From Ascidia mentula (lineage: Eukaryota > Chordata > Ascidiacea > Phlebobranchia > Ascidiidae), in the NCBI GenBank assembly GCA_947561715.1, contig OX387198.1, positions 7,998,001 through 8,062,000 on the forward strand: DNA of 64,000 nt, in the 5' to 3' direction. The translations under genes were made by a program, and so were the position numbers. The notes under the pieces are model-generated. The model made no database searches. It was not told where the DNA came from and saw only the letters and a list, made by a program, of their open reading frames with translations. Shown here piece by piece: positions 10,401 to 63,842 of this stretch (position 1 is the first letter of the stretch; every line of letters begins with the position of its first letter).

Positions 10401-10981
10401 GGCTGAGAGCGGCAACTTCGCCGCCCTTGAACAAGTCCTCCCCGCAACCAACCCCGTGTTCGTGAGGCAGGCGATGCAAAGTAATCAGACAAGCCTGCGG
10501 GGATACCAACCTGGTGAGAGTCGCCATTTTGACTTTTTCGTGCAATAGTTGTGTGCGAGTCGCACGCGTGGAAAGTTTCTAACTGTTTTTTAATTGAAAC
10601 TGCTCTCTATTTTATTAAGACACTAACGATACTTTTTAGTGAAATGTTAAACAGATTTTAACCTTGTTTTCGTCAATGTGACCAAAAGTAAATACCGAAA
10701 ATCGTCGTGATTATATGGGTAGAATGATTCCAGTAATCGTTTAATTGGCTTTTAATTGCGTGAAGGTAGCTTTTCAACCATTTTCATCTGGCAAAATAGC
10801 AACATGAATTAAGTACTGACAATATACTTTAAATAATTCCGAAAAATTTTACTTTGACTGGCGTACGTATGCTTTGTATCAACGAAAAAGGGGAATTGAG
10901 AGTTTTACGCTATTTATTCTGTTAACAGGAATGTTGCAACGTTCACTCCTTCCCCTTCTGTGTCAGTTTTATGGGATGTAA
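7416..10981 (+). CDS. BarH: BarH-family homeobox transcription factor
   Basis: Six exons: 7416-7815, 8072-8224, 8916-9105, 9326-9412, 10359-10513 and 10929-10981, giving 345 aa. Phases agree at every junction. Residues about 32-41 ([11 protein letters not shown]) form the FIL/eh1-type repressor motif that binds Groucho in Bar proteins. The homeodomain reads [14 protein letters not shown]...[18 protein letters not shown], with the Bar-specific Thr47 and Tyr49 in WYQNRR. It is followed by the diagnostic Bar extension [13 protein letters not shown]. The C-terminus [16 protein letters not shown] resembles the LQRPLVPR tail of vertebrate BARHL. One homeodomain intron follows QK. Bar proteins act in the nucleus in sensory, neural and retinal fate. 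The gene converges on another homeobox gene 1 kb away. Confidence 0.93.
10266..10292 (+). repeat. Copy 1 of a dispersed 27-bp repeat
   Basis: This BarH intron segment (TCTGTTTTTCTGGCACACTA then AAAACGT) matches 63440-63466 in USP7 intron 2 at 25 of 27 positions. It is probably a fragment of an old dispersed element. Confidence 0.4.
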
Positions 10982-17611: not shown

Positions 17612-17998
17612 AACATATGAACGAACAGCACCTACGCAGAAGTTCATTCAACAAGATGAGTGACAAACAAAAGCACGTGATTATATCACTTACATGCGAA
17701 CTGCGAACGACGACAAATCATTGCTACACAAAATACACATGAACTTTTTGGGAAACTTGAAGATTCCAAGTTCAGTCACAGATGTCTTAAGTCTGAACCA
17801 TCTTTACTTGACATAAAGTCAGGCTTTTAGGATTTCTAGTGGAAGTAACCTTACATTATTACCGAAACGCTGCAAAGAGGGCGCTACTCTGCCCTTAAGC
17901 TGCTAAAAAATGAAATAATAAAGCATTTTTACAGAAAAAAAACAGTGGAAGAATCGAACATTCTAGAATGCATAGTCGTTACTACAGTCAGACTTTGT

Positions 17999-36533: not shown

Positions 36534-39500
36534 TTACTTCTGGGGCGGAGGATTTCCGAGATGACTTTCCTGTCCAGTTTGGAGATTCACGTCGGCGGCG
36601 GAGAGCGTCACCATTGGCGTGGGGTCGGTTTGTGCGATCTGTGTGGGCGCGGACTGCATCCCCTGCAAGGTAGCGGCCTGAGCGGAGTTCACTTGCAGTG
36701 TCAGAGACTGGGGTGCTGTGTTGCGCATGGCAACCTGGGAATAGTAAAGTTACAAACGTTAGCGCAAAAAAATGCATATTGGCCTCAAGAAATATAGGCT
36801 TTATTCCGAATCTTTAGATGGACGTTTTATTTGTTTGTTATCAGTATTTACCACCCGATAACGGCTCTTGACAATTACCACTTATTTTTTCCATTCAACT
36901 CGTATTTTTTGACCACACCGCGATTTGAACCCAGGATATCCTGGCCACGAATCCCGATCAGGTTTCATTCTTGTTATATGGTATCTGTACTTTTCTTCAA
37001 GAGGTCAACTTAAGCGCCGCAACGTTAAATTTAACGATCAAGTTTCTTTCAAATGTGTGCCCGTTTATACACATGTTAACCTAAATGCTGTCGTTAATCT
37101 TTTGCTCCAAAATACACGAGTTACTGTTATCTTCTTTCGGTGTACTTCATTCAAAATAATAGTAAGATCACAAGTCCATTTGTTAGTGGCCGATAGGCTG
37201 CAATGCCAGGATTGCGAAGCAAGTAAACCTTATATTATTGCGAGGGACGGAATTCTTATGGTACCTGTTGTGAAATAAGCTGAGAGTGGACTTGCATGCC
37301 AGCCGGAGATTGGTTGCTGATGGCAACTATGGAGGGTCGTTGCATGGCAACGGGGGTCGAAGCAACAATCATCGACTGACTCTGGTTGTTGGCAATTGAA
37401 TGGAGTCGTGACTGCCGACAAATGTAATATGTTTATTCCAGATGCAACGACGGAAATAGAAACTTGTCGATAAATACACTCGTGGTGGGTTATTGTTCAT
37501 CTGTACAGTAGTTTTTTTGCGCAAAATACAAAAGTTTTGATTTGGATTAAAACAGAATCCGTAAATTTGAAGCTATTGTGACGAACTATGTTGTAAATTT
37601 CTTTGAAACAAAACCATGGGTGTAACGAGTGGAAAAAATTATTTTTTTGCATACAAGAACTGACAAAAACCTTACTACGGATCCCCCAGAGGTCCACTGA
37701 ACCCTTGAACTAAATAGTCATCCATGCTATAGATTTACTCACCCTCGGCGTCGATTGCATCTGTTGTACTTGAGGGGACATGAGCCTTTGTTGTGGAACA
37801 AGGTTGGTCGCCGAAACTATGGTAGTCCCAGCTGACAGCGGCAACTGGGTAATTTGTGGTGACATCTGCATAATGTAAGTGGTTATGTTTAAAGATAATA
37901 CAGGAGTGCTTGTAAAGGACACATATGATATTACCAGTGGTGGGATTCAGCATGAAATGGCGCGAACCGGTTCATGGAATTTAATGACCAACGCGAACCG
38001 GTTTATTAACAACCGCATATGTAGGCGTATGTTGCACTTCGAGTAATGCATTCCCTATGACATGCTGCTAATGAGAGAACCGGATGCTAAAATATTTGAA
38101 TCCCACCACTTAATATTACAGAAAGTGTACTGATGTAATGTTCTTGGTTTCATGGAGCGTCTAATATTGACATACCTGCTGGGAACTTTGTGGAATTATG
38201 GTGTGACGTATTGCTGTGTTGGAGGCTGGGGTGGATGGGGTTTGGAGGAGTTTCGTTACCGTCAGTGTAACAGGAGCCTGCAATATCTCATAATTAATTT
38301 ACATATAGAAAGCACGTCGGTTGTTATTGGTATGTACATCACACAAGGTGATACACGTACGGTCGGCAATAAGTTATCTTTATGTCTTCATGACTGCATT
38401 ACACATTGCTGGCAATCAGACAGAGCTAATACAAACTATCCGCATCAAAATCAGAATAGTCGTATCATCATTTTGCCCACTGAACAACATAATATTGGGT
38501 GTTGGTGCGTTGTTCAGATCAACATTAAATGTCATGCAAGGTTCCCATATCAATAAACACAAGACACATTGAATTACATGGATACTTTTTTTTAAAGCGA
38601 CAGCAAACCTTTGATGTTTGTGGCCTCCTCTGCTTTTGTTGAGCAACAAGTTGACTGAGCATTTGCGCTTGAATCTGTGGAGTCATTTTGACAGTGGTGG
38701 GAGCTCCTGACCCAAGCTGGTGTGATGGAACAGTGGCGTACACTGTCTTCGGGGGTTGTTTTGCCGCAATCATCTGAAATACGCAGTTATTGTTAAGGTT
38801 TGGGTTTTGTATTAACGTTTGAGCTTAATGTGTAAAGTTACGTTGATATCATCAGCAAAGTAAAAAACGAAACATAAATAAAGATTATTTCCGACGTTTC
38901 AAGGGAGCAGTACAATGCGTTTCCCTTAAATTTGGCCTTGGTTCAGTAAAAAATGTCCAACATTATTCCGCTTCATTTTGCAATTTTTTTCCAAGGCTTT
39001 TGGGTTCAATCCTTTTTGTCATGTTACCTGGCGCGGTTGTTGCTGCTGTCTCTTCATCAGCTGTTGTTGTAGGAACAGGGAGGTACCGGAAACGTTTGGC
39101 TAAATACATAACATGTGTAAGCTGCAGAGTGCACACACTCGATCTTAAAGAAATCACCAATGAAGACAGTCTTAACGGCTAAATACACAGGCAAGATGAT
39201 TTCATTTTGCATGAATATGCAGTCCATTCGTGGGGCGTAAACGCAACTATGCACAAGCCCTCCGAAAGTAACGCACTAGTAAAATAAAAACAACAACTAC
39301 GTACTTGGTTTCCCGATACGATCATCTGCTTGGCCTGACTCGAGTTTGCCGCGTTGAGTTCAGTCAAGTTCATGGCTGCAAATGTACAGTGTAAGTTCAA
39401 ATTCATAATGTTTTATACGCGTGGTCGCGTGGACAAGGTTTACTCACCCGTTGCCAGGTTGGTAACAGGAACGGTTATAGGCATGGGTTTAGTTGTTGTG

Positions 39501-42500
39501 ATTTGTTCATTAGCTTGTTGGGCTGCTAGGTTTCTTACATGCTGAGCTTGGACTTGTGCTTGCATGGGGGCGATTTGAACCTGCTGGAATACAAGAGTGT
39601 CAAGTAAATATTTCATCAGTTTATTTATGAATCAGTGGTTTCCCGTTGTTAAAGTGCTGTTCGTTTATGACCATTTCAAGCAATAATGGGCAAATGAAGC
39701 TTGATGAACTTATGCAAGCATTGCAACCGGTGCTACTGAGAAAATGACCAAAACTAGTTTTGTGATGAAAGTTTTATTTAGGCTATACCAATGTACAACA
39801 ACGCACAAGCTAATTTTAACACAGGTTGCACTTCCTGCTTTACTAGCAATGCTTTTAAAATGGAAATACGTAATGTTAAAATATATTTGTATGTATATAA
39901 TGGGCAATCAGACAGAGCTAATACAAACTATCCGCATCAAAATCAGAATAGTCGTATCATCATTTTGCCCACTGAACAACATCATGCACATGGATGAGTA
40001 GGTAGGTTAAACGTGATAATAGAAATATATTCAACAAAGTGCAAGGCGTCCAAAAACTTCAACGTTAAATAATTGCAATTATATAAAGCAGAGATTATTA
40101 CCTGAGATCGTTGGAGAACAGATTTGATCTGGGTTCTCGGCTGCTTCATGAGCATTTCCAATTCTTGTTGGGTGAAGGGTCTCGTCATCTTTGCAACCTG
40201 GAAAAACATAGCTTTCAAAATTTGAACACGAAAAAGTATGAAAAGTTGCCGAAATGGATCAAAGTCCCTTCCATATGACAAGTTGAAGTGGGAAAAAACA
40301 CCCCGATGTGGTTTGAACTGCCCCAGTAAAGTTTCCACTTGTAAAGATTGGATAGTGATAGAGTTATGAAACCCTTTCACCCACCTGCACTTTTTTGCCT
40401 GCAAATACAGCACTGGCGCCAGAGACAATGGTTCCAGTAATTTCGGGCTGACTGGTTTGCTGTCTTTTGCCCTGCAAACAAAAACAATCGTTCTATTTTG
40501 CCAAGAAGGGAGAATTGAAGAGCGGAGAGTAGTAGGCTAACCTGTTGTTTTCCTGGAGTACTCGACAAGGCTTGTTGCTTCGACACTTGGTGGACTTGCT
40601 GCATGGTGGTGAGCTTCTGTACAGGCTGTTGACCTGAACATAATAAAATCAAATTGTTATGTGTTTCACCGAAGTCAAACACTTGCTGGAAAACCTACAT
40701 TTACCACCGTTATTACACAATAAATTGGAAGCTTTCTAAATAATAGTTGTGTATTTCCCCAGAACGCTTACTTCTAGGAGGAAAGCTGGGACGTGATGAC
40801 GCAATGCTCGATCCCGCCACTGCCGTCGTTATGGTAACCATAGGGGAGTGACTGGCGCCGCTAGCAAATGTGATGCTCATGGCTGGCACGGACGTACCGC
40901 CTTGCTGTTGAAGTTGGAGCTGCGATGCGTTGCCAGATATTGTTCGAAGAGTGAGCGATGCTGACGTAGCCTGGTCACGTGCAAATGCAAGGTGACGTAT
41001 TTGGTGATGCTACTGGAATAGTGTTTTTTTACCTTGGACATTTGGATCTTGGCAGCAGAGGCTGGAATGGACAGGGTGCCCTGTCCTTGTATGTTTACTC
41101 GACGTGTGAAGGCAGAAGTACCCAAGTTGCTTCCAGCTAGATGAAGACAATTTGATAAATTTATGAGTTATATTTAGTGTTTTGCTTGCTATGTCCGTAA
41201 TAACAAATAAAATGTAACAACGCAGTTATGTTTCATGCAATGGCAAGACAGACAAGACCGCCCTAATGCGCAGTTCCTTATTTGGCGATCACAGCTATCG
41301 TTTTGAGATCATTAGGTTTACAGGCTGTAAACCTACAATGCAACAATGTATTAAAACTGCCACAGTGCAGCACTTACGTTGCAGAGACGACTTGCCGACG
41401 ATCTGACTTCCAGCGACAACCACAGGTTGTGCCATGGCACCGGCAGGAGTCTGCATATTCCCCGTCATGGTAACGGATGTTGGCTGTTGGGTGGTTCCAG
41501 TTTGTCCGGTCGGTTTCTTTTGGGTGGCAATCCTCTTTGCTCTGGCTTCAGCCACCTGGGATAAGAACCAGTGTTGTGAATGTTTGGAAGACAATTGTAA
41601 TGCCCTTGGACATTGTCAAATTGTTGATTTATAATATGCGTGCTAGAAGTAGGTCAGTGGTTCTTTGACTTTTTTAACGGTACACCAAATAATTTGTTTA
41701 TTGAGCTTGTGGCCCACCACCAAGGCCAGTCATTAACAAAACAACAAAGGTGACTTTTTTTTGCACTGGTTGGCAAACTGCAGGGCACTTTTCAAGAAAG
41801 GGGTCCTTTTTGCAAATCAAGCGAATGGCGAAATCGGTGAAATGAGCGAAGGACCGTCTAAAATAATTTTACTCTGGGTAGTTAGGTCAATAACATTCGC
41901 ATACAAAAACATTGGAATATAAATGTGGCAATTAAAACAAGCGAGGGGCAAAGTTTTGAGCGATAGTGGGACGAGGTACGAAGCGGACCTGCATTGGATG
42001 TAGCGGTTTGTCGTAAGTTATTCCGCAGTCGTGAAGAATATTTGTGTGTTTCGGGTTCCTCTGGAACTGTCCCGTGCCCGTCGAATTCTTGGACGGGGGA
42101 TTTCGCTTGTTGCAAATTGTCTTGCATGCGTCGAACCTGAAAATTATCGGTCAAGTTTTGCAATGTTTGGTGATGAAGTTGAAGAGAGTGCAGACAGTAC
42201 CTGTTCGAATAGAGGTTCGTGAACTGGAAGTTTTTGTCGTTCGAGAACAAGATTTGTGTTTTTTGAGATTTCAGGAACTTGGACTTAGTGGGGGGTTTGA
42301 AGCCTGCAGGAAAATATTGTAATTATAAGTCCTGTTGAATTAGGACAATTGTTCTGATAAAAGACAGTACATAACGCGCTAGAGTTTGAACAAAAAAAAA
42401 ACAACACTGAAAATGCTCCAATTGTTACAACAGAAAAAAAAAATGCTAAATTTAAAACTACAAATATATGACCTTGAACACAAATTTCACTGAGTAGGGG

Positions 42501-45500
42501 AGTGTTAATTCACCCAGAATGCGAATAATCCAACCTTTTAGTTTCTTTTTGGGCGTGCCAGGTTCTGGTACACTTGCCACCGATGCCTTTCCTTCCTCGC
42601 GTTGAACGATGACACTCTCGAATCTGAGCTTACATTGCTTGGGCGATCGGAATACGCTGCCCACAGCGTTCACCATGTCGGCAACCAAGTTCCAGTTGGG
42701 TGTGTGCGCTGGCATCATTGTGATCAGCGACAAGGGCATGTCCAGAACGTGTTGCACGGCCTAATGTGAAAATAACAGGATGAAACCGAATTCATATATG
42801 TGCAAAAACAGCCATAATAAAACCGAATTTGAAACTGCAAAACTATACATGTAAAATACGGCCTTATGTAAAAAGAAACCAATAAACTGGAAAATAAATA
42901 GTATGTAAGATATATATTACCTGGAGCAGAGCCCAGTCCTCGTTCACTATCCAAAGTGCTTCCAACTGCGCTTTCGCCGCCAAGGCACCGTCGTTGTTGT
43001 TTTCTTTCGGCGATGTAGTCAAGGCCGATATAACCCCTGAAATGAAAGGATGTATGCCAGTTTCTTGACATACGCATTAAAAGTATGCACACACCCTGTT
43101 CAGTATGCGACTAATTGATAGTGAAACGTGAACGACCAAGGTAAACGAAACGTGTTTAATCATGAAAGAACAGATTTAAAGCAGCTCATTCACGATGACC
43201 ATAAAGCCCGTTACTGTTGTTTTACAGTGGCCACCACCGCACGTTTCATTGTAGTTCAGTATATACCTTGCACGATCTCGTGTTTGGTCGGTGTCCCTGG
43301 GATCAAACTCGGTTTGATTCCCTTCCCTTGAACTTTGATCTTGTGTGTTTTCAGCTCCTTCTTCTTGGCCACTTGCAGGGGATGGTTGAAGAGTGATTTC
43401 GGAATATTGACGTCGACTCTTGTGAGTTTCCTCCGTGGGCCTTGGCAAAAACAGACACGTTAATCAAATGCAGGATTTTTGAGTCCCACTGTTTCCTTAA
43501 TTCGGGCATTACTTTAATTAGTGGTTATCAAAGCGAGGGGCGTTTTTCGATCTCCACCGAAGCGAAGAAATTTCAACTATTTATCGAGATTAAGGACTAT
43601 TTAAATATACCAAATTAATACAAGCCTTGTAATATATTGGAGGAGGGCAATATTTCTCTCATTGGCCACTGGGTTGGGACACTTACTTAATTCTTGCTTG
43701 GCCCTCTTCTTTTCGCGCTTCACAATCACCGGTGGTAGTTGTTCTTCGGCCATTGGTGTGGGAATGTAGAGAAGAGACATACACGAATCCATGTACAAGT
43801 CGCTCTCGTCTTGTGGCGGAGTGGGGGGTGTCCACATCTACATCACATAGTAATAAAGGGCATTGAACCAACTTATTTTAACTGTCACGCATTTTGACCG
43901 CTATGCAGTGTCTTAATAAAGTTTGAAAAAGGTGTATCACACACGCGTATTTGCACACGTTTATGTCATACTAGTGACATGTAAGACGGGTTGGGCAAAC
44001 TTTTCCACAAGCGGGACAGGAATTACCGTAATTTTAACTGACAGGCCAATCAGTCGTGCGAGTATCCAATGTAGTGGAGTTTTTGTAAAGTAACTGGTTT
44101 ACAATAATGAAGGTTTAAAATTACACTTTTAAGGAAAAATACGTTTCAGTTTTTAAGAACATAACAGTAAATCGTAAGTTAGCATTATTAGTCAAAAAAG
44201 TTAGTGAACTGCTACAGCGCAACAGGATTAAATATAAAAAAGGGCACTTGGGAAGGTAACATGTCTGGTTTACACTAAATAAATATGAATACAAATCAAA
44301 ATGTGTACTTACCGGCATTATTTCGCCAGTCAGTTCGTCCACGAATATCTGCGAAGCGAACACAGCTTATTAGCACGAGCTCCTCATTACACAGCTGTGT
44401 GGCGGCAACTTTCACATCCAAATGGCAAACTTTTCCGGCCAAATTTTTTTGCTGCCTTCGCTGCATTACCCGGCTCGAAGTTTGTGTTTAAAACCAGAAT
44501 GCATTCGCGGATGGCATGGTAAGTTCTGCGCTAGCCTGATTGTAAAAGTTCTCGTGGCCAAAGGTTTTAATATTCGGTTATGCAAGGAATTCGCAGTTAG
44601 CCATGCCAATGCATTCGAGTTTTAAACAACCGCCGGTGAGAGATAATCTTTCTCTGGCTTAGCAAGACTGTCCCTGCCATCCCCCAATGCACTCCAACCC
44701 AAGACACAACCTTCGAACCAGAACAGCGCCACACAGTGTACGTGTCAACATAAAGTGTGAACTCTATTGCAAACAGTAAACTTTCGTGGTGTCAAGGCAA
44801 CGATTTCACACAATGGCGGAAGTAGAACGAATTGAAATTAACGCTCGTTAAAGTGAGTGAAAGGGAGCGAAAAGATATAAACTTTAAGAGAAGATTCAAT
44901 TAAAAAGGAAATTGCCTATTAGTATCGTGTTGTTAAGTCAAACAATAGCTAAGGCGGAAATACTAAATGGCGGTGCGTGAAAGCTCTGTTACATGTTTAA
45001 GAGCGATTCAAAGGATTCAAAAACATTTCGTTCCTCCTCATTTTCCGGGGCGAGCGACTCCGCATCACTGAGCACAGGTTCGAGGTTTAACGTGATCAGG
45101 TCCTCGTCGTTGTCACTGGCAACCGTCAGGTCGCATTTCAGCTCCTCCTGCAAGGAGTCCAACAACGAAAACGCGGATTTGTCATTGCCGCTGTCCAGGA
45201 CAGGGGTTGAGGTGTCTTGGACAGTGAAGTCGAGGTCAAAAATGTTGGATCGAGACTGTTGTGTGGTGGTGGTGGCGGCTACTTTCTTGGGTAACTTCTG
45301 CGTCCTTGGCACGACTTTCGAGGCGCCGCGCCCTCTATGCGTTTGCTTTGTTGTTTGATTGCTGGAGTTGTTTACAGTGAGGACAGGCGACTGACTTGCC
45401 ACGTTGGATACGAACCGCAGCGATTGTTGGGAAAGGCCGGGTCTCTGTATAACGAACGTCTGCGGTGATCTTGCTCGCGGTTGTATGCGTTGCGTGGCAC

Positions 45501-48500
45501 CAGGCAAACGGATCATATTGACAGACTGGCCCCGCACAGATGTGGGAGCAATCTTTGCCGTGACCGTGGACTGTTTTGGCTGCTGAGGTGTATATGGTGT
45601 TGGCGTGTTCGCTTGAACAAACGAGAAGGGTAGGAAAACAGTTCCTCGGTTGGAGTTTGGCGTGGTGTTGGTTTTGCTCCGCACCACAGTGGAACTGAAC
45701 ACACTGCGCGGGTGGCTGGTGACGCAAGTTTGCAGCGGTACACTGTATACTGGAACATGCGGACTTCGGTTCACTATAGTGGGTGTCTGAGGTCGTTGCA
45801 CAGCCGTTTGGGCCTTCGGCGTTTCGACCACGATGTTGTAAACAGACTGGGCCGGTTTAATTGTTTTGGGGTTCAAGGGCATTGTTGAGTCCGTGAAGCC
45901 AGACCCAGGTGAAAAAAGTTCGTATTCGTCCTGGCAAAGCCTCGTGTTGCGCTTACGCGGTCGACCCGATTTACTGAAGGAGAGAATCTCAACAGGTCCA
46001 TAGTCTGTGCTGCTGTCAAGAAGACTGTCTGAACCCTCCGTCACTTTCCACAGAGGTGAACGTCTGTAGTCGGAGTGAGGCATGATGCTACTAGACTTTG
46101 ACGATTCAAAATCATTTGTGTCTGAAAGGTCCACATTGTCATCACTGTAATCTTGCCAATTGTTGTAAAGATCAATGCTGTCGGAATCGCCCGAGAGGTA
46201 ACCGGCCGTCTCTTCTCCATACTCTGTCCAGAGAAGGTCGTCTCTCTGGAACGATTCTTCGCCTCGGAAGTTGTTGTATTTTTCGTTAGGCCTTTCTTCA
46301 ATTGTTCGTGGAACATTGTTTGGTTTACCCCTTCCACGTCCACTACCCCTGGGTCTGCCACGACCTCTTCCTCTGCCTCGACCACGCCCACGACTTTTCA
46401 CTGGTCCCTGTTTGGGTTGCCTTGGTTTTCTCTTAGGTGGCCCAGTGGACAGTTTCTCCCCATTCTCGAAGTCAAAGAGATACTCTTTGCCTTGTTGTTC
46501 CTCTTCATCGTCTCCGGACGACTCCGACGTGGACATATCCAGAAAGCAGATGTCGCGCTCCTTTTTCTTCCTCTTGCCTTTTTTCTTGCTCACCTGGTTC
46601 TCAGAATCTTCCCTGGTGTAGAATATCTCGTCCTCTTCCACATCCATCCTTCGCTCTTCTTCCTCCTTGAGCAGGATTAGATGCTGAAGCTGCCAATCCT
46701 TCTTGGATTGCTCCACCTCACTCTGTGTAACACAGGAATAGTAAAACCACAATTAACAACAGGAGGTTGAAATTTACCTCTGCCATCTTGAGCTCATAGT
46801 CATTCATCTCCTCGGCAGTGACCTCCAGAAAGTTAAGTGCATATTTTTCTATAGGATTGAGCTCCTCATAAATGGTTTTCAGTTCTTCCTCATACTTAGA
46901 GCCTTTGGGAAGCTTGAATCTGCTCTCTGTATAAACAAGACAGCACCATAGGCAATGGTAAGTGGGTACTATGGGAGACAATAAAACACTTACGAGCTTC
47001 ATTCTCATCTTCATCATCTTCCTGTTTCTCTTCTTCAGTGAACTCCTCCATTACAGCATCCTGTCACAAAAAAGGTTACCGCATTACTCCAAAAGGACAA
47101 CACTACCAGCAGTTTTGAGGATTTTCAAATGGCCTCAGTAGTTGTGTTGTCATCAACATTTATCAGACATATGCTTGTCAAACTCATCATCGGTAACGCG
47201 CAAATTTCAATGATAACTTGTTATTATAGACAGTTTAAACACCTGTTCTTGTTTGAGAAGTTTGGCTGCCACTGCATCTTCCTTGTCCTCCGTTTCAAGC
47301 AGTGCTTCCTCCAAATTCTCCTCGCTTTCTTTGGTCTCTTGTTGAGGCTGCATAGAAGTTTTACATAACGTTAACACAAGCTTTCAGTGTTGTACTTTGC
47401 AGTAGCTAAACACAGCCTTCAGGATTCAAGTGTCTTAAATCACCACAGTGGTTTACACAGTAAGAAGAAGTTTGTCATCATTGGCAGGCATGAAAACTGA
47501 TACTTTTGGAAATTAAACGGTATGGTAATATTACCTCAGATTCAGATTTAGATGCTTCAAGAGCCTTTTGCCTGGCAGTAAGTGGACGTTGTGGAGGCTC
47601 TGTCAGCTCTTCCAACCCAGACGGTTCATCAAAGAGGTCTTTAATGGCTTGCTGCAAAGTTCGAAATTGTTTGGTTAATATCATTTTTAGAAACCAAGCT
47701 CCTAATAATTCCCAAATTATTTTTTTTCTTACATGTTTGAAAAACGCAGTTGTGAAACTTCCACCCTCGATGGCCAAATTCCCGAGAAGTCGTTTCTGGT
47801 TGGCTTTTTTCAGGATATTTTCCTCTACAGTTCTTTCACTGATAAGTCTGTAGATGTGGACGTCCCTTGTTTGGCCGATCCGATGACACCTGCCAAAGTC
47901 AAACAGGTTTCTCCATCAGCAACACCTCAGCACAAAGCAAAGCTTGTAGAGAACTCAGATTCAGAAGTTATCGCTAAGAGGGTCTCTTCATTGTGCCACG
48001 GGGAAAGTGTGTTGACAGATCAAAGTGCAAAGAGCGTCGGTTCGATATACAGTATTATTTAACAAAAAAGATCAATTTACCCATTATTACTAAAACTACG
48101 AACTTAAATAACCCCAAAATATTGACACAGTCAACAGGGACAAACCCACTTGTGGAACAAATTAAACTCGGCTCTTTTGTCATCATTATCGGAGACACTC
48201 GAAAGCTTAATCTTATGTATGGAGTGTACCTGTCCTGAGCTTGGGCATCCATGGTAGGATTCCAATCGCTGTCGTAGAAGACAACTGTGTCGGCACCAGT
48301 TAAATTCACCCCGATCCCACCACTCCTCGTGGAGAGGATGAAGCAAAAAATCCTGGGATCGTTGTTGAATCGCTCCATTCTCGCCTGCAACGGTTAAATT
48401 TTTATTAGGTTTTGGATTGAATGTTGAAAATGAGTGCAACAATCCAGGGTGAATGTCTCATAAGTGCTTTTGTTTCGTCACATACTTTCAGGTTGACTGA

Positions 48501-51500
48501 GGCGAAGTTGTAATCATAGACCTACATTTGGTTCAATTATAACCAGACAATTCACATAAACATACCATGCGTTGTTCAATGTGTGTTGAGCCATCAAGAC
48601 GAAGATATCTGTACCCATGGTAACTTAAAAAGGCCTCCAAAATGTCAAGGACTCTGGTCATTTGAGTGAAGATCAAGATTCGGTGTTTTTCGGCCCAAAA
48701 CCGCCGGAGGAGAACACTCAGTACTTGCAGTTTTCCTGATAAAATAAATAAAATATGTAAGAATTCGTTTTTGAGGCAGTAATAAATGTCTTTACTGACC
48801 ACAGTCGTACTGGATCAAACGAGCTTCTGGGAATTGCACTTTAGACAACTGTGTTATGCTGTGGTACACCTTCAATGACTTGGAGAGATAAGATCGGATG
48901 CAATTGAGGGAATTTTTCTTCGCCTGCATTCGCCAAGGGGTCGGGTGTGAAACATTCATTTGTGGAGTTGAGGTCGTTACTTTGGGAACCACAAAAATAA
49001 ACCTGCAAACAAATACTTAATTTAAAAATAAAGAAAAAACTTGAAGTGCCTTACATAGGTTCTGCGTGCTTTTTTAAATTAATTATAAATCCTGCGCCTA
49101 AAAAAAAAAAGTAAGCCCAGGGGTTTGTAGTTTTTAGTGCAAAGGTAAAGTTATTCACAACGTTATGCAAGGCACCAACCTGTGCAAGATATCCCTCAAC
49201 TCCTGGAACCTTTCCTCATTTGATTTCTTTGCTGATTGAAGGTTTGTCTTCTCTATGTGAGCCGTGTGCCAACTTTGGCTCTTAGGTGAGCTGTAAAAAA
49301 CAAGGCTTCAAATTAACAATTTAAAGCATTCTTTCTCAAATGGGAATTTTAAGTCCACAAACCATGCGTCTGTGGCTGATTGAAGAAATTGCACAGTGTT
49401 GGCAGATAAGTAGCTGGGGTAAGCTTCGCATCGCTGCACGTTGATGTTGCAAAGTCTCTGAAGCGTGTCCTCCCTCTTTGCATTTTTTAAGCGAACCAAC
49501 ATTTTCTAAAGATAATGATTTAAGTTAAGAATCTTGTTGTTTCAAATATACATGTCATTACTGAGAAAAAAGATGTTTTTTTTGTTCTTGCACTACGAGG
49601 TCTGCCATGCACGAACTACACGCAGATACGGAATGCACAAGCCTTAATTTCCCTGTTTAGATCTACACAAGATGCCATGGGCTGTGACACCTCATGCAAG
49701 TGTTAACAGGTCTTATTACTTCAACTAAAACATCAAATAATTTGTCTAACATACTGAATATGATTCTTCAGGAAGTCGCTTTTTCCGGACAATGGTTGGA
49801 TCTATAACAAAATAACATTCAAAATCACCAAGTAATTGACAATGTTTTTTCTATATTTAGGCAAACAGATTAATTTATAATGCAAAAAAATAACACACCA
49901 AGAATACAAAAAGAAAAGTATGACTCAAAAATAAGACCTAACCTTTTGAAGAAACAGAATCCTGAGCGGCAATGGTGACCACATCAGCTGCAAAAAATCA
50001 TTTAAGTTGCAAAAAACAAGTTCGTATCTTTGGAAAACTACTTATTCAAGTTAAAAATATGTCCCACATTCTACTAAGAAGTACAGCACCGAACAGCCGT
50101 CTCCTAACGATGCCAGAACCGGCCATAATTTAGCACCCGTAATCGATCATTGCAACTATGGAAAGGCTCACAATGAAGATACCAAGAGGATGCAAACTTT
50201 TGTTATAACTGATATTTTATCAAACAATATTGATGATCACAATATAAAAAATCAATAATGCTTTTCATAAAAAACTGAGATTTTTTTAGAGACTAAGTAG
50301 CATTGGATATAATTGGGTAGAAATTTTACGTCTGGTTACATATATTTATATTTATCATCCATTAATGTAATAGTTTATGGGCTTACCAGGCATTTGTGCA
50401 TTAGTGGTGGAGGGCAGTCCTGTTGAAGTTTGGGAAGATGATGTAGAACCTCTAGAAGCCACACCGGATGTAACAATTTGCACCACACCACCTACAAACA
50501 ACTTAGTGTTAAGTCCCTGCACTACAAAACGATAAATCCAAACGGAATCTTTGAACTATCTCAGAAAAAGATTCTGTTTTCACATCAGTATATTCAGATG
50601 AACTATGCCAATAGAATCAATCATCATAGAACTACGTTCAATTACAGAGCATTAGGTAAATTAAAGGGATAACCACCTGGTAAATGTCTTATCTGTCCAT
50701 TAGGTATTGTAGCCCATCTTGTGCCTTGTGCGGTCTGATACTGCAGCGTAATGGATTGGGAAGTTGACCTGGGTGGGTTTTCTGAAGGCAAACACATGTA
50801 AATAAACAAAAAGAGTAATGAGACAAAGGGACACTTGACGAATTTGTTACAGTTTTTAAGACAAAACACTACTTACCTCCATCATTCCTGGCTTGCTGCA
50901 CAGTCACCAGTCTTGAGGTGGAACCTTGCTGCATGTTCGAAACAACCTTGAAGAAAAATATTTGCCTACTAAAGAGAAGTAGTGCTAAAAGTTTCATTGC
51001 AGCGATGACAACTTACCACTTTGGTTTGGTTCAGCAACCCCACAGAAGCATTTTGTTGATTGGCAGTTTTCTACACAAAATTTATAACAATCAACATAAA
51101 ATACTTTGTCATGCCAGAAACTTCAAACACTAGGCCAGTTAAACTTGCCATAATTAAATAGGAAAAACTTTATATTTTTAACCAAAAATGTAGCTTAACA
51201 TGCTACTGTATGAACAACACATTGTGCAACTTCATATCAAACACTGCATGTAGTGGAAGCAAATTATTTACGATTGGTATGACAGTGGTCAGTTGATGGA
51301 CAACAACCTGACCACCTCTTAAACAATCGCATATTGTCAAATACCGTTACATACCTGTTGCTGCAATGATGCAAGAAATAGCTTTTCCTGGATCATGGCT
51401 TTCATCTGATCAGTGATTACTTTTGGGCCAGGGGTGCTGAAAAAATGCACACAGTAATATTGGTTTGCTTTATTGCAATATGCACTTTGAGAACAGGCAA

Positions 51501-54500
51501 CATTATTTGAAATTTGAGTTTCAGAAAAATACGGTGTAGTTTCTATTTGTTTTTACTGCAAGAATGCATATCACTAATGTAACATGTTTCCCTGAGGTCC
51601 AAAAGTATTCGCAATGTGGAGAAGAGCACATTGTGCAACACATTAACTGGTAGCAATGCTAGCACGTAAAATATCACCACTGTTCAATCTTCCCCCAAGG
51701 CAAGTCAATAGGAAAATTGATCTTTCTTATTGATGGTAGAGGGGGCTGGTGACATCAGCAGCAAGATTTCAGTTTGCTCACCTGTCAACAGCTGGTGGAT
51801 TGCTATAAATTTCCTCTATTAGCTTTCTGGGGGTTTGCAGTTGTTTAATCTTGTTGGCATTAAGACTGGAGATTTCACTCAAGGTTGGGATGTGGAGGTT
51901 CAAGTTTGAAAGGCAAACTTTCTGCATTAACAAGTTTCTTGTTCACCAAATTTTGGGCACAAAAAAATTTTTACTAACAAATATTGTTGAAAATGTTTTA
52001 AGTTCAGCGACGCCATAGCTGACGCCCTGTGTGGAGAATTTTCATTTACTGTACCTCCAATACGTTACATGCAAGCTCATGAATACCAGCAGACATGTCT
52101 TTGACAGAGGAAAAGATAGACGCATATGAAAGCCAGGTTTACCTGGAAGGGTCCTTTCTCCAGAGCCTTGTGGACAAGAGACGGCACATTGAGTGCAATA
52201 GGAGCGGTCACAAAGGAGGACACAGTCGGTCGAGGTTCAAATAGGTTGGGGTGGTTGCACACTTTCCGTAGCTGCATCAGGACATTAATGACACTCATGA
52301 AGTGCCCACCGGCCAATGTGTCTTTTGTCCTTTAATATAAATTGAAGATGTGACATTTAATAGCCTCAAATAGTGTGCAGATAGACAGATACACACAAAG
52401 AGCATAAAATGTTGCTAATTTCAGATTGTTCCGACAGAAGGCAGGTACCCAAACACTGGCTTCTTTTAATACAATCTTTTAATGGTTAGGAGTTTAGGGT
52501 AGAAACAACTTACGCAGCTCTGGACATGAAATCTTCATAGAGGAATCGCTGCCTCTTGGATAAATGACACTTGACGACGTGTTCATATTTGTTGGGCATC
52601 TGCTTTTCAACATCCTTCTTCACCCTTCTGAGAAGAAACGGCCGAAGAACCTGATAAGCAGAAACTTATTTTGCCAATGTTTCTGATAAAAACCATGAAA
52701 TGAGGTGTCACCTTGTGCAGACGTCGAACAATCTTCTCATTAAACTCTTGAGAGCCTTCGATCATACCAGTCATTGGATTTGAAAACCATTCCTACCAAA
52801 ACGAGTCAATGTTAGTGTCAGAAGCACATTGATTGTTAATCGCTTGTACATACCTTAAACTCTTTGTGCGATTGAAAAACTTGAGGCATAAGAAAGTGCA
52901 TTAGGGACCACAGTTCCATTAAATTGTTCTGGAGTGGTGTTCCTGTCAGTAACAATCTACGTTGGGAATTGAAGTTTAGGAGTGCCTGCCAACGCTGGGA
53001 CTTGAAGTTTTTGATGTTCTGTGCCTGAAATTGCACAAGCATTTGTTGATTTTGCTTCTTTGAGCATCTGAAGTGTGTTAATGTTGTGTTAGTTGCTCAG
53101 TTGCCTGTAAAGCAATGCAAGGGTAAGTGCAGCAGTGAAAGCGTGGAGCAATGAAATCACACTATCAAAGTTGCACTTTTATTGCACGCCTTCGTTGGCC
53201 GACCATATTTGCATTCAGAGACCTAGTTGAATGTTGACACACAATATGTATTCGTGCAACGATAACTTCTCATCATGTTTGCGGGAAGGTCTCAATGGTT
53301 TTGGCACACAGGGGCATGCTAAATTTTAACCAACCTCGTCCAGTATCAGGTATCTCCACTTTTTCCGCCGGAAACTTGTGTGGTCTTGGATAACCAACTT
53401 GTATGAGGTAATACATACATGGAACGCATTGCTTTTGGTCCATCCTGTGCGTTTTAGCTGCAAAAACAAGACATACACTAAAACCAGACCAGCCTCAATG
53501 AGTCAACAAAAACAGAGTTATGAATTTTTGAAAACCCTATCCTAATATCCTTTGTTAAACTTACTTTTCTTTCTTTTTGGGAACCATAATATGTGAGGAT
53601 TTTAAAACCAGGACACCATTTCTTGAACTCCATTTCCCAGTTGAGCATTACACTTGTTGGCACAACAATCAAATGAGGACCCCAGACACCTGAAAGCAAT
53701 AATGTATTATAGCCTACTTTGCCAAAAGGAAACCATCTGGGAATATTATTTGTACCACACCTATATCCCGTACCAGCACTAACAATGAAAGCATGGGAAC
53801 TACAGGCCTGATTTTATTTCTGAGATGTTAGCACTAGTCGCCACACCACAAACTGGCATAGCAACCGAAGGCACCTCATAAAACTACGACCAGAGTATTT
53901 TTTTTACAATTAAATGCGTTATACCAAAACAAACCTTTTTCACAGGCTAAATGTGCCAGAAGGGCAATTGTTTGAATTGTTTTGCCCAAACCCATCTCAT
54001 CGGCCAAAATCCCATTCAGTCGCTTTGAGTACATGGTGACCAACCAGTCGAGACCTATGTGTTGATATTCACGCAGCTGGTGACGTAGTAAATGAGGTAT
54101 GGCAGTCATCACCTACATAAAAGGTGGTCCATTGAATTGGGCAAAATAAGAACATGTACCCAGTAGTAAAAAGTGAGCATTGAAGCTAAAACACAACATA
54201 CAACAAATAAACGGTAAATTAAGCATGAAAAGGGTATAGATGACTTTGGTACAACTTTACCTGTGTGGTGGCCAGTGTATGACCAGTTGGCTGTAAATTC
54301 ATTGCCTCTTCAGCAACATCTGTTATTTCCTTGTTGGGGCTTCCTTCCCTTTCTGCTTGGTCGGGTTTCTTCAAGAAGTTTTCATGGTAATAAGTTTTGC
54401 ACTGCATTTGTCATTTTTATAGTTCAGTACCTTTTCCTTTTCATGGTCAGTTTTGAGTAAGTAATCCATGCCAATTTCTTCTTCTTCCTTTTCATCTTCG

Positions 54501-57500
54501 CTCTCTTCACTTTCGCTCGAACCTACAAACAAACAAATAAACTTTTAAACCAGAGCATATGTGGACCAATCTAATCATTTTTGTCAATTTTGGTAAAGCT
54601 AAATAGTGTTGTCTACAACAGTATGTCACCTCGCATGGAACCTTCTAGTTTAATACATATTTAAACTAAAGGATGGTAAAGAGGTATTTGCTCTTGACAT
54701 GTACAGCATGAAGTGTATGCCAGGGTGAAGGCACACATCAGCTGACATGGCACAGACCAAACAAATCAAATTCATAAAAGTGCATACTTCCGGAATCTTC
54801 CTCGTCTGATTTATTATTTTCTTGTTGTGTCTCTGACGGTGGTGGGCTGGGATCTTTGTCATAGGCTCCTTGGTACATTTTCAGCAACTCTTCGATGGGC
54901 ATGTCACCTTCAGCCTGCAAATAGAAACCACATTTATATACTTCCATCAACTTTTTCATTTTCATTAAAATGTTAATCATTACCGTTCACCATATTGGTT
55001 TAAGCAGAAATATGCTGACTGATTAAGAATGACAGGTAAGGAAAACATACGACAATAAGTTACTGTGCCTTCACCTTATTCCCAAGACCAAGAAATAACA
55101 GTCCTGGGCAGTAATAATGAGTGCCAGTTCATGTATTCCCAATAATGACCAGCCAGGAAATTGTCATTCTTGGAGGCAAAGAGATGGGAAAAGGTATAGA
55201 CCACATACGTTAGTACTTTACCTGCAAACTCTCCAATTCCATCTTGTGGTCCTCTTCTTTCTCCTGCTCCTCCTGTTCTTGCACTGTTGCCTCATCGTCA
55301 CTGGACTCATCACTGGCACTGAACTCTTTATCTTCTTGCTCCTGTAAAGTCAAGAGGAAAATTGCAATCAAAGATGCAGACGGACTGTGTTGGAAGTGAA
55401 GTCAGTTAAACAAATTCAGAAAGACAATAATCTACACACGATGATTCAGCATTACGTCCCTTGTCTTTTTCGGTCATCATAAAATGTGAAAAAAAACACC
55501 GAACAGTTTTTTCTTCTCTTACTTGTGCAGTTTTGGGCTTTTTTGCCTCTACAGGGGTATCAGCTTCTCTGTCAGTTTCGCTGGGTCGTTTCCTGGCAGA
55601 TCTTCTCAGTGATATTGAGGGTGGTTTACTCGATCCTTCATTATCTGAGGAGAGGTTTTCCTCCTATGAAACACACCGATGACAGTAAAATCAATTATCT
55701 ATTCCAAACCAAAAAAATCAAATACTTTCAATTACATAAAAACAATAATTCGAAAATCACAAACTTAATTTGCAAAATAGCTTATTAGAAGAATAAGTGT
55801 ATAAACTAGTTGATTAGCACATCGTACCATAGAAGCTTCCAATGATACTGCCGACTGGGTCTTACTCGATTCTGCAGGTGCATCTTCCATTTTCTGTGAC
55901 AAGACAAAGTTATTTAAAATATAATAAAAATGGAACAAAACTTGTTTGTGTTAGGCCAGCACACATTACAGAATAAACCACAACATGTGTTCAAGCAAAC
56001 CACAAGGGTACCATATATTCCTTTGAATGACCGTACAAAGTATGCAACCCTTGCAGGCAAAGTAAAGGAAACGAATACTTATCACAAAATTTGTTTTTCT
56101 GAAATGCAGACAAACCTCTTCAGATTCAGAACAGGAATTCTCTTCAACATCAGGAAGGGGCTTCCCAAAGTTTTCCACTGCATCTTTTGGAAGTTGCTGA
56201 AGGAGATCTTCAAATGGTAGTTCGCTTTCTTGCTTAAGCAGACTTACTTCATCCATAACTGAAGGCAATAAACATAAATAAAATTATAAATATTCACATA
56301 GGGCTACATTTCAGTTCTTATTCTCACCACTTTCTTCATCATCGTTTAGTTCTTCTTTTGCTATAGTTTCTTCATCATCACTTGAAACACCCTGAGGTAG
56401 GAATTCATCTAAAAAAAATTTTAATCTGACAAGGTTGCTGCACAATAAACCATTAAGAATCACTCACCATCACTGCCCTGCTTGGAACTGGTTTTCGACC
56501 GTGGACTGGTTGGTGTTTGGTTGAGACCTTGAGTCAGCCAATCAGAGTACTTTGCAGTCTGATCTACTATGAAGTTAAGATGCAGATCCAATGCTTTCTG
56601 CCTCTTCTCATCCAGCAGGCATTGTTGCTTGTATTCTACAACCTACACAGGAAGTGGGCAGTTTGAAACTAAATTCCAATATGACATTGCCTCTTTTTCT
56701 TTTTAACAGCAAGTCTAAATGTGTCAGGTTATATTGCTGCACAAAGAATATACTGTCGATGCACAGAAGCAGAACCTGCCATTATCTTTGAATCAACTGG
56801 GGACAAAGCTTAGTAGATAGAACTACAAAGCAGTTGCTTTAAGGCATGTTGATTCACTTTGGGGACGGTGATGATCGAAATGTTATACCTTTCCAATGTT
56901 GGACCAGAAAACTCGAACTTGGCGTGCAATCGAGGACGCAATTCTTCTTAGCTTTTGTTGACCTTCTTTTTCAGCCTTTTTTTCTTTCTCTCTCTGTTCT
57001 TTGTGGTGATTCGTAACCATGCGGACCAACTTAAAAATAAAATACAGGATATTGCTATTACCAAGATAACACCTACAGCAAAACTTACACACCTTTCTGG
57101 CTGCCACACGTTTCCATTTACGTTCCTGTGCAAAATCAGCAGCCAGCCATCGCATTTCTTCAAGCAAATAATCCCAGTGAGTTTTGTTCCTAGCTGGTTC
57201 TTGCACCTATGAAATACCAGCAGAAAGCTTTTTAACCACTGCATTTACAATTTACTCCATAATATATTACCTTGGGAAGACGGCGTTGTGACCATAGCCC
57301 CTGTTTCCTTAGTTCTGCAACTCTGCGTTGGATAACTGCTTCCTGTTTGGCACGCTCCAGTATCTCTTCCTGGGAGCTTACTTCGTACACATCAGACAAG
57401 CTTTGCCTTGACGATTGTTTCAATCTGTTTTGTGGAAAGATGCAATTTCATGGTTAGAATCTGTTGGCATATACTCAAATCAGGTTGGTCAGTCAAGGCT

Positions 57501-58148
57501 TAATAAGTTGACAACAATCCATGCAACGATTAGCAGAGCAAAACACCGACCTCAGAACAGTAGCAGGTGACAAGCTGGCAGAAGTAAATGCATGTCGAAC
57601 TTTGGCTGGATCTGGCTGAGGAGATTCTCTAAAAAAAATTTTCATGATTCACGCAATCACGAATTTGGTTTAACACGACCCAACCTACTTACCTATTGCT
57701 AGTGGTAGCAGTAGGGGTTGCATTATCTTGATCTATTTTCTCTGGTTCCTACAAAAGAACAGGTCAGTTCAACATTTCCTTATATATATATATTTAACTA
57801 TTGCGAGTTTAAATGTTTTGTACATACCTTTTCCTCTTGCACAGGTTTTAGGACATCAGACTGCACTGATTCTGGAGTTAATACAGATTGTGTCACACTT
57901 GTAGTGGAATCTGAGGAAACCTTTCTCTTGTTCGAAATAATTGGATTTTGATTAATGTGTTCATTTAGTTGTTTCGACGGCCGTTTCTTAAAGTTTGAAA
58001 ATTCTACATAGTTGCCATCATGTTGAAGAAAGAACAGCTCTGTAAGCAAGTTTTTGTAATGATCTACAGAGTTGGAAAGTTCAGTATTTTTGGATTCTAA
58101 CACCAGTGCCCTTTTTTCTGGTACTGATTGGGAATTTAAGGCATCCAT
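36534..58148 (-). CDS. domino (EP400): Domino SWI2/SNF2 remodeler, EP400-like isoform A
   Basis: 62 in-phase exons give 2599 aa. Shared exons 1-40 span 46778-58148. Exon 41 uses the donor after 46594. Exons 42-62: 44313-44348, 43687-43837, 43267-43440, 42921-43036, 42535-42760, 42201-42303, 41989-42136, 41378-41555, 41033-41136, 40772-40970, 40542-40633, 40385-40471, 40102-40197, 39448-39583, 39305-39375, 39028-39099, 38609-38773, 38176-38277, 37743-37865, 37265-37411, 36534-36734. The tail matches human EP400 step by step: [38 protein letters not shown] plus the SANT region ([37 protein letters not shown]; residues about 1840-1910), [20 protein letters not shown], then [13 protein letters not shown] and a Gln-rich end ([14 protein letters not shown]). 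In animals EP400/DOM-A belongs to the TIP60/NuA4 complex. An in-frame TAG upstream of the ATG supports this start. Confidence 0.9.
37935..38111. mobile_element. hAT-type MITE in domino intron 59
   Basis: This 177-bp element starts CAGTGGTGGGATTCA and ends TGAATCCCACCACTT: near-perfect terminal inverted repeats, with the last base G to T. It is flanked by 8-bp duplications GATATTAC and AATATTAC (7 of 8 match), the hAT target-site length. Inside, GCGAACCGGTT occurs twice. It has no coding capacity. Confidence 0.75.
38409..38482 (-). ncRNA. Box C/D snoRNA, U44 (SNORD44)-like, copy 1
   Basis: Lies in domino intron 58, sense strand. Box C AUGAUGA at 38465-38471, D' CUGA at 38451-38454 and D CUGA at 38416-38419. 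The guide upstream of D, UGUAUUAGCUCU, is complementary to 18S rRNA AGAGCUAAUACA. The fifth base before D pairs with the A that vertebrate SNORD44 methylates (18S Am166, from memory). GGCAA pairs with UUGCC as terminal stem. It is identical to copy 2 over 80 bases. Confidence 0.75.
39901..39974 (-). ncRNA. Box C/D snoRNA, U44 (SNORD44)-like, copy 2
   Basis: Lies in domino intron 54, sense strand. Box C AUGAUGA at 39957-39963, D' CUGA at 39943-39946 and D CUGA at 39908-39911. A perfect 7-bp terminal stem, UGGGCAA with UUGCCCA, closes the RNA. The 12-base guide to 18S AGAGCUAAUACA sits at the correct distance from D. The better stem suggests this is the parental or functional copy. Confidence 0.82.
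41313..41335. repeat. Perfect inverted repeat in domino intron 49
   Basis: TAGGTTTACA, three bases, TGTAAACCTA: a perfect 10-bp palindrome with a 3-base loop. No boxes or repeats nearby explain it. Confidence 0.5.
44313..44348 (-). other. domino: 36-bp microexon 42 of domino isoform A
   Basis: Bounded by CTTCGCAG and GTAAGTAC, it encodes exactly [12 protein letters not shown], aligned with human EP400 VYEDVDGQTEVMP immediately before LWTPPTPPQ. Confidence 0.75.
44989..58148 (-). CDS. domino (SRCAP): Domino SWI2/SNF2 remodeler, SRCAP-like isoform B
   Basis: Exons 1-40 (coordinates in the entries for shared exons) plus an extended terminal exon 44989-46722 give 2225 aa. The ATPase core is SRCAP-like throughout: [20 protein letters not shown] (Walker A, about 674-693), [17 protein letters not shown] (about 776-793), [50 protein letters not shown] and [20 protein letters not shown] then QDRCHRIGQ. 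About 370 residues split the two helicase lobes, as in INO80-class enzymes that load H2A.Z. The B-specific 534 residues contain a lysine cluster, acidic blocks, and an Arg-Gly repeat with an AT-hook-like RGRPRG (1759-1780). They end [21 protein letters not shown] on minus at 44566-44571 is a possible poly(A) signal. Whether B is made depends on ignoring the exon 41 donor; this is inferred. Confidence 0.8.
46588..46599 (-). promoter_or_regulatory. Alternative 5' splice site deciding domino isoform A or B
   Basis: On minus the sequence is GAACCAG|GTGAGCAAG, a near-consensus donor inside the long exon 41 frame. Cutting after 46594 leaves residue Gln1691 in phase 0, and exon 42 also starts in phase 0. 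Reading through gives [11 protein letters not shown] and the B tail. The human EP400 equivalent (YTREDAYSMEY...) continues straight into the exon 42/43 sequence, which supports use of this donor. Confidence 0.75.
47130..47197 (-). ncRNA. Box C/D snoRNA, U27 (SNORD27)-like
   Basis: Lies in domino intron 38, sense strand. Box C AUGAUGA 47184-47190, D' CUGA 47163-47166, C' UGAUGA 47150-47155, D CUGA 47135-47138. The guide before D' contains GACAAGCAUAUG, the exact complement of CAUAUGCUUGUC at the 5' end of 18S rRNA. Vertebrate SNORD27 has the same guide before its D' box for 18S Am27 and similarly ends CUACUGAG. The terminal stem is weak. Confidence 0.82.
47413..47490 (-). ncRNA. Orphan box C/D snoRNA candidate in domino intron 37
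   Basis: Box C AUGAUGA 47475-47481 and box D CUGA 47419-47422, with a short GCC/GGC terminal stem offset by one base on each side. The sequence before D (AGACACUUGAAUC) matches no rRNA target I can recall. Confidence 0.45.
49580..49712 (-). ncRNA. Box H/ACA snoRNA in domino intron 30
   Basis: 5' hairpin closed by CCUGUU/AACAGG (49705-49710 with 49652-49657); H box AAAUUA 49645-49650; 3' hairpin with lower stem CUUGUGC/GUGCAAG and upper stem UCUGC/GCAGA; ACA 49583-49585. Pocket arms are AUUCCGUA and CCUCGUA. Pocket top to ACA is 15 bases, in the 14-16 rule. Target unknown. Confidence 0.62.
50075..50195 (-). ncRNA. Possible box H/ACA snoRNA in domino intron 28
   Basis: The 5' hairpin is good: GCAUCC/GGGUGC (50188-50193 with 50133-50138), inner UCAUUGU/GCAAUGA, then H box AAAUUA at 50126-50131, 15 bases from the pocket top. 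A second hairpin follows, but its expected ACA reads ACU, so it may be degenerate or mis-folded by hand. Confidence 0.35.
50548..50641 (-). ncRNA. Box C/D snoRNA guiding 28S (U77/U80-like)
   Basis: Lies in domino intron 27, sense strand. Box C AUGAUGA 50621-50627, D' CUGA 50594-50597, C' UGAUGU 50582-50587, D CUGA 50561-50564. The guide GGCAUAGUUCA before D' complements the conserved 28S stretch UGAACUAUGCC. An external stem UUGAAC/GUUCAA flanks the boxes. Confidence 0.7.
51285..51315 (-). other. Hairpin in domino intron 24
   Basis: GUGGUCA-G-GUUG pairs with CAAC-UGACCAC (11 pairs, one bulge). An outer GGUAU/AUACC and a following AAAUAA resemble half an H/ACA RNA, but no acceptable 3' hairpin was found. 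Confidence 0.35.
53209..53284 (-). ncRNA. Orphan box C/D snoRNA candidate in domino intron 18
   Basis: Box C AUGAUGA 53270-53276 and box D CUGA 53215-53218, 62 bases in total. There is no convincing terminal stem or internal D'. The guide CAUUCAACUAGGUCU is of unknown target. Confidence 0.35.
53748..53880 (-). ncRNA. Box H/ACA snoRNA in domino intron 16
   Basis: 5' hairpin closed by UGAGGUG/CAUCUCA (53872-53878 with 53821-53827); H box AAAUAA 53814-53819; 3' hairpin closed by AUCAGGCCU/AGGUGUGGU (8 of 9 pairs) with upper stem CCCAUGC/GGUACGGG; ACA at 53751-53753 directly after the stem. Target not identified. Confidence 0.6.
54621..54755 (-). ncRNA. Box H/ACA snoRNA with 18S pseudouridylation pocket
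   Basis: Lies in domino intron 13, sense strand. 5' hairpin 54698-54749 (CAUGU/ACAUG, CAGC/GCUG, UGUGUGCC/GGCAUACA); H box AGAGCA 54689-54694; 3' hairpin with lower stem UACCUC/GAGGUG and a 12-bp upper stem; ACA 54624-54626 followed by three bases. The right pocket arm (8 bases) plus lower stem puts the target 14 bases from ACA, as the family requires. The arms pair with 18S GCAUGGAA-U-A-AUGG. Confidence 0.75.
55412..55486 (-). ncRNA. Box C/D snoRNA guiding 18S 3' region (SNORD82/Z25-like)
   Basis: Lies in domino intron 11, sense strand. Box C AUGAUGA 55474-55480, CUGA boxes at 55446-55449 and 55416-55419. The guide AGGGACGUAAU complements 18S AUUACGUCCCU. The fifth base before CUGA pairs with the fourth base (A) of that target, equivalent to vertebrate Am1678 (numbering from memory). 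No clear terminal stem was found. Confidence 0.65.

Positions 58149-63842
<5,694 letters not shown>

Follow-up and report, generated by a model that had tools for sequence, protein, structure and literature searches.

The window analysed here, a 64,000-nt stretch of the genome of the ascidian Ascidia mentula (contig OX387198.1, positions 7,998,001 to 8,062,000), contains a large gene on the minus strand (36536..58148) whose introns harbour a cluster of candidate small nucleolar RNAs (snoRNAs). According to an approximate model, built by dynamic programming and later corrected at introns 17/18 and 33, this gene has about 60 introns and codes for a protein of about 3,100 aa. Intron numbers are those of the corrected model, in which the introns of U27 and of the second U44 copy, formerly 37 and 56, became 38 and 57. 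Five of six translated pieces of the gene gave Pfam matches, the sixth being without one; the order of the domains is HSA, SNF2 (on two exons), Helicase_C and Myb-like, corresponding to the layout HSA, split SNF2 ATPase, Helicase_C and SANT/Myb of the EP400/SRCAP/Domino remodelers. The best PDB sequence match of residues 1–740 was SRCAP (457 bits), followed by p400 (334 bits). Because of the ordered domains and these PDB matches, the gene is identified as encoding an SNF2 ATPase of the Domino/EP400/SRCAP type.

Fourteen of the 60 introns contain 14 candidate snoRNAs, five of the box C/D and about nine of the H/ACA type. A previous sequence-only reading had described the introns of this domino gene as a snoRNA cluster with at least five box C/D and three H/ACA candidates. 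The cluster was confirmed and is larger than claimed: five C/D snoRNAs were found (U27, U44 twice, U80/snR60, and a guide for the 18S U82 site), the H/ACA candidates of introns 13, 16 and 30 stand, and six were added in introns 6, 12, 21, 22, 24 and 28. The same reading expected one snoRNA per intron, all in sense orientation, which was borne out by Rfam matches and by a guide scan, both on the host strand. The layout is that of a multi-snoRNA host in animals, in which a number of introns each carry a single sense snoRNA; according to the available part of PMC11028025, animal host genes as a rule contain several snoRNAs, no more than one in any intron.

Box C/D snoRNAs

In all five box C/D loci, the C box RUGAUGA and the D box CUGA are exact, the length falls within 60–90 nt, and a guide within the defined range of 10–21 nt is located 5' of D or D'; at position –5 it has a T, opposite the A that is the predicted methylation target. 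The boxes, the guides, the strand and the intronic position can be read directly from the DNA, and the terminal stems in part. Guides were matched against ribosomal RNA (rRNA) sequences in loci L001–L017. L002, which has ribosomal DNA (rDNA) only in its short end, was omitted from the scripts, and L003–L017 had been fetched with a pattern that contains the U27 target segment. Viral contigs were scanned for further rRNA motifs and for the U44 guide, and none were found.

All snoRNAs described in the following lie on the minus strand, like their host. The snoRNA of intron 11 (55412..55485; C box from 55479, D' at 55449–55446, D at 55419–55416) has the D' guide AGGGACGTAAT, which matches 18S ATTACGTCCCT exactly over 11 nt in L001, L004, L015, L016 and L017. 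We take the target to be the human Am1678 position, i.e., the U82 site; Rfam matches of this snoRNA were weak (SNORD27, 23.6 bits; ceN27, 23.3 bits; SNORD82, 17.7 bits). U80/snR60 in intron 27 (50561..50635; snosnR60_Z15, 31.4 bits; boxes present) carries the D' guide GGCATAGTTCA directed at 28S TGAACTATGCC, human Am1521; the terminal part of L002 contains the 28S segment as an exact 11-nt match, whereas pairing to L016 involves G-U pairs. U27 (SNORD27) in intron 38 (47130..47195; Rfam SNORD27, 30.4 bits) has the D' guide GACAAGCATATG for 18S Am27, with an exact 12-nt match in 15 of 15 loci L003–L017, which were fetched by that very segment. The first U44 copy, in intron 53 (39902..39970; Rfam RF00359, 34.7 bits), has a guide for 18S Am166 that is exact over 12 nt in eight loci, has one G-U pair in L016 and is absent from L017; a second, U44-like copy is located in intron 57 (38410..38478; RF00359, 33.8 bits). 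In U27, both U44 copies and the intron 11 snoRNA the guide is exact over 11–12 nt, and the claim that guides are complementary to conserved 18S or 28S stretches was borne out by the 11–12-nt matches in the C/D snoRNAs. The sites Am27 of U27, Am166 of U44 and Am1521 of U80 are listed in a table within the available part of PMC3511168.

In a guide scan of introns of at least 90 nt, which required both C and D boxes together with a duplex spanning position –5, five of 42 sense introns scored 11.0–12.0. None of the 42 antisense controls reached 11 (maximum, 7.3), nor did any of 476 windows from the region of 1–36 kb (maximum, 8.6), and a single one of 840 shuffles did (11.4; next, 10.9). The single-copy snoRNAs (intron 11, U27 and U80) end 39–72 nt upstream of the 3' splice site, a distance that, from work on vertebrates, suits coupled processing.

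Searches with Rfam, which the sequence-only reading had proposed as a check, failed at the gathering cut-offs (no match) and succeeded below them, since sub-threshold matches were to the expected snoRNA families, all on the host strand. Scores were 30–35 bits for snosnR60_Z15, snoZ102_R77 and SNORD27, as compared to gathering scores of 40–52. Boxes, guides and target sites are the same in these families and in the host introns, while the remaining sequence has diverged. An equal-sized control stretch gave no snoRNA match in the Rfam search at a weak threshold, and in view of this control and those of the guide scan, the idea that the Rfam matches arose by chance was rejected. Since the Rfam matches are sub-threshold only, the candidates are named by guide and site rather than as members of Rfam families.

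Besides the lack of matches at the gathering cut-offs, several observations weigh against the identification of these loci as rRNA guides. The rRNA reference loci are foreign eukaryotic contaminant contigs, and the non-rDNA parts of these contigs also show 11–13 nt of raw complementarity by chance. The value of 11.3 obtained for intron 27 in the guide scan stems from an 18S stretch of L016 and not from the 28S U80 site, where the score against L016 is 10.3, a level reached by four of the 840 shuffles. When guides were left out and motifs and stems were scored alone, U80 (17) and the intron 11 snoRNA (15) hardly differed from the best scores elsewhere (16 and 15), and a stretch of intron 35 that is not counted here scored 21. 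That stretch (47890–48149) and a similar one in intron 37 (47348–47534) have C/D boxes, but their guides do not exceed those of shuffles; they are possibly orphan snoRNAs.

The terminal stems bear on the question of whether some or all of the loci are decayed snoRNA copies (pseudogenes or relics) whose functional counterparts lie at other genomic sites. Real intronic snoRNA genes are required to have flanking inverted repeats besides sense orientation in the host gene, as stated in the available part of PMC3349704. Stems are clear in U44 copies 1 and 2, with scores of 20 and 12, and weak, with scores of only 5, 4 and 2, for U27, U80 and the intron 11 snoRNA, respectively. The existence of a duplicate with a stem shorter than that of copy 1, and the distances of 132 and 321 nt between the ends of the U44 copies and the 3' splice site, likewise are what relics might show. 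Against this, boxes and guides are intact in five of five C/D snoRNAs, all of them sense in the host gene, and we consider decay into pseudogenes quite unlikely.

The two U44 copies form an 83-nt repeat of 99% identity at a spacing of 1492, which comprises U44 and 15 nt of upstream intron (5' flank). Since the sharing is confined to the snoRNA unit, the copies stem from a recent duplication from one intron to another of the same gene. Retroposition of copy 2 was considered and rejected, as neither a poly-A tail nor a target-site repeat was seen by eye and 15 nt of 5' flank are common to both copies; as judged from the repeat, a DNA-level copy is likelier.

H/ACA candidates and other features of the window

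The candidates in introns 6, 12, 13, 16, 21, 22, 28 and 30 have two pocketed hairpins, an H box ANANNA, an ACA 3 nt from the end and a length of about 130 nt. Highest structure scores were obtained for introns 16 (53748..53878; 50.7) and 30 (49580..49710; 48.9). The top guide score among H/ACA pockets (12.6) belongs to intron 16, however on the divergent 28S of L017 only, and was not relied on; the 5' pocket of intron 30 possibly addresses 28S AGATC[Psi U]GGTG (Psi, pseudouridine), with a match of 8.3 that is not above shuffles. The SNORA1-like candidate of intron 6 (56717..56856; structure score, 45.0; H box AGATAA, ACA box ACATTT) matched Rfam SNORA1 with 25.3 bits (E 0.41 in 5 kb), and its pockets gave no match above shuffles in the rRNA references. 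Likewise, no clear rRNA guide was found among the reference loci for the pockets of intron 12 (55061..55190; 39.0; two hairpins, H box ACATGA, ACAGTA). In intron 13 (54621..54759; 41.8), the 3' pocket is directed at 18S GCATGGAA[Psi A]ATGG with 8+4 pairs, in L012 only. The SNORA38-like candidate of intron 22 (51982..52110; 45.0) was missed by the strict structure scan and recovered by the relaxed one; it matched Rfam SNORA38 with 21.5 bits (E 0.43 in 5 kb), and its 5' pocket is directed at 18S ACGTT[Psi A]CTTTGA with 5+6 pairs in L011 and L012.

The intron 28 candidate (50057..50193; 38.3) was likewise recovered by the relaxed scan only, and its 5' pocket is directed at 18S CGA[Psi C]AGATACCG with 3+8 pairs in L004, L011 and L016 (shuffled-pocket p 0.12). 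The candidate of intron 24 (51186..51330), a 145-nt two-hairpin fold with H box AAATAA and an ACATTT end, was found via its guide: the 5' hairpin (–26.4 kcal/mol) has a pocket with 6+7 pairs to 28S TATGAC[Psi C]TCTTAAG, and the 3' hairpin, seen by folding, was rejected by both the strict and the relaxed structure scans. The candidate of intron 21 (52346..52477; 37.4), the weakest of the H/ACA set, with its end just 16 nt away from the 3' splice site, has a 5' pocket directed at 28S TCTGAC[Psi G]TTTAAT of L017 with 6+6 pairs, one of them G-U.

The structure scan, performed in a strict and a relaxed version on introns of at least 120 nt, enumerates lower stem, pocket and upper stem; it replaced an initial strict scan based on minimum free energy, which had found introns 12 and 22 only, and none antisense. 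In the strict version, six of 41 sense introns scored at least 37 (introns 16, 30, 6, 13, 12 and 21; 37.4–50.7), the maxima of the controls being 19.0 for antisense introns (n = 41) and 14.7 for shuffles (n = 82). The relaxed version returned eight of 40 sense introns, adding introns 22 and 28, all with lengths of 129–140 nt; the ten best control matches measured 151–198 nt. When windows of the region 36.4–58.3 kb were scanned independently of the gene model, six of 290 scored at least 37, all on the host strand, and the best on the other strand reached 36.8. Pocket guides, scanned in introns of at least 100 nt, scored at least 11.0 in five of 41 sense introns, none of 41 antisense introns and one of 164 shuffles; one of the five, intron 16, is supported by divergent rRNA alone. 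The guides of introns 13, 21, 22 and 24 equal or exceed the best control, and that of intron 28 is fair. Single-hairpin guide scores of introns 23 (10.6) and 47 (9.6) fell inside the control range and were not counted.

Part of the evidence would fit the alternative that the H/ACA calls are chance hairpins and that the real snoRNAs are the five C/D ones only. Rfam gave 21–25 bits for two of the nine H/ACA loci; the remaining seven matched none of the H/ACA families in weak-threshold searches (introns 24, 28 and 30 being covered by one of two such searches). A pooled test of 16 pockets of eight loci, without intron 24, was not significant (p = 0.094). In the relaxed scan, three of 160 shuffles scored at least 37 and antisense introns up to 30.1; two of 476 windows from 1–36 kb also exceeded 37 (44.4 and 43.7). 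The separation of six of 41 sense introns from a control maximum of 19.0 in the strict scan, the canonical sizes of 129–140 nt, and the guides of introns 13, 21, 22 and 24 speak against chance hairpins, which we regard as a very unlikely explanation of the set as a whole. Nevertheless, because the pooled pocket test was not significant, we are less sure of the H/ACA set than of the C/D snoRNAs.

The two high-scoring windows outside the host gene correspond to plus-strand double hairpins at 17866–18026 (161 nt; 44.4) and 1943–2088 (146 nt; 43.7), which were taken as chance. A weak Rfam match to the H/ACA family snoR99 (22.0 bits, E 4.6) was noted in intron 9 (56013–56109). By eye, intron 58 (37937–38109) contains an element of about 173 nt with 13-bp terminal inverted repeats GTGGTGGGATTCA, resembling a miniature inverted-repeat transposable element, and the last intron (36905–36965) a stretch resembling the box B of tRNA genes (minus strand, GGTTCAAATCGCGGTGT), possibly of a tRNA-derived short interspersed element. 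The host gene is adjoined by a USP7 homologue on the plus strand (60523–62046). An intronless open reading frame of 1140 aa with ankyrin repeats lies on the minus strand (27002–30421) in otherwise intron-rich surroundings, and homeodomain-like fragments, one of which is presumably BarH-like, occur at 8852–14133.

Proposed function of the snoRNAs and comparison with known hosts

Taken together, the protein-coding host very probably carries ordinary intronic guide snoRNAs that are released from the introns and guide modification of 18S and 28S rRNA. Expression, processing and rRNA modification are proposed by analogy with established snoRNA biology: the host promoter would give rise to a single pre-mRNA, on which one small nucleolar ribonucleoprotein would assemble per snoRNA intron; splicing, debranching and exonuclease trimming would then free the snoRNAs, which would guide 2'-O-methylation or pseudouridylation of 18S and 28S rRNA. 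The mobility within genomes that is typical of snoRNAs may have brought them into the host introns. Alternatively, they might act mainly in cis, controlling splicing of the remodeler transcript by folding of the host introns and thus coupling snoRNA and remodeler output. There is precedent for host splicing being affected by snoRNAs that pair with their own intron (available parts of PMC10324135 and PMC11028025), but the guides identified here match conserved rRNA instead, which makes a predominantly cis-acting role highly improbable.

Like GAS5, the host of U44, and SNHG1, the host of U27, the ascidian gene combines many intronic box C/D snoRNAs, and U44, U80 and U27 are among the passengers of those two genes. 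On the basis of these hosts of U44 and U27, the arrangement had been expected to differ from that of vertebrates; the part of the claim that stands is the contrast between a protein-coding host and the non-coding GAS5, which in mouse contains SNORD80. Human GAS5 and SNHG1 contain ten and nine intronic C/D snoRNAs, respectively, according to the available part of PMC6789762, which also places SNORD80 in mouse Gas5 and gives only SNORD genes for these hosts. Both are non-coding, whereas the present remodeler gene is large and protein-coding and contains both C/D and H/ACA snoRNAs.

Two Rfam searches at E up to 10, with 18 and 11 matches, returned neither SNORA49 nor SNORA30. These H/ACA snoRNAs are intronic in the homologous human remodeler genes EP400 and SRCAP, respectively, with one snoRNA each as compared to about 14 here. 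The view that no other remodeler gene hosts snoRNAs is weakened by gene lists in the available part of PMC10137620, where SNORA49 stands directly beside EP400 and SNORA30 directly beside SRCAP. Since multi-snoRNA hosts are standard in animals and EP400 and SRCAP are each listed next to a SNORA gene, the claim of a new type of arrangement is weakened. About 14 mixed C/D and H/ACA snoRNAs in one protein-coding remodeler gene look unusual as to host and number, and the arrangement is of a known kind. Among the matches listed in literature searches, no title or abstract opening dealt with snoRNAs in invertebrate domino or EP400 introns. It is conceivable, albeit unlikely, that Domino-family genes are an ancient snoRNA hub of animals: the present set, with its guides that in vertebrates belong to the non-coding GAS5 and SNHG1, would then reflect an earlier protein-coding host, of which EP400/SNORA49 and SRCAP/SNORA30 would be remnants, and guide output would be tied to growth-linked transcription of the remodeler.

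According to the available part of PMC3511168, snoRNA location drifts across eukaryotes, broad expression being the main requirement for a host. With guides of the vertebrate GAS5 and SNHG1 in a protein-coding chromatin remodeler gene and a recent U44 duplication, the locus provides a testable case of snoRNA movement between hosts. Should related species keep the same snoRNAs in the same introns, the choice of host would show a greater stability than expected under the constrained-drift model; a difference in the snoRNAs hosted would add to that model. Knock-down or mutation of the host gene could, moreover, disturb rRNA modification.

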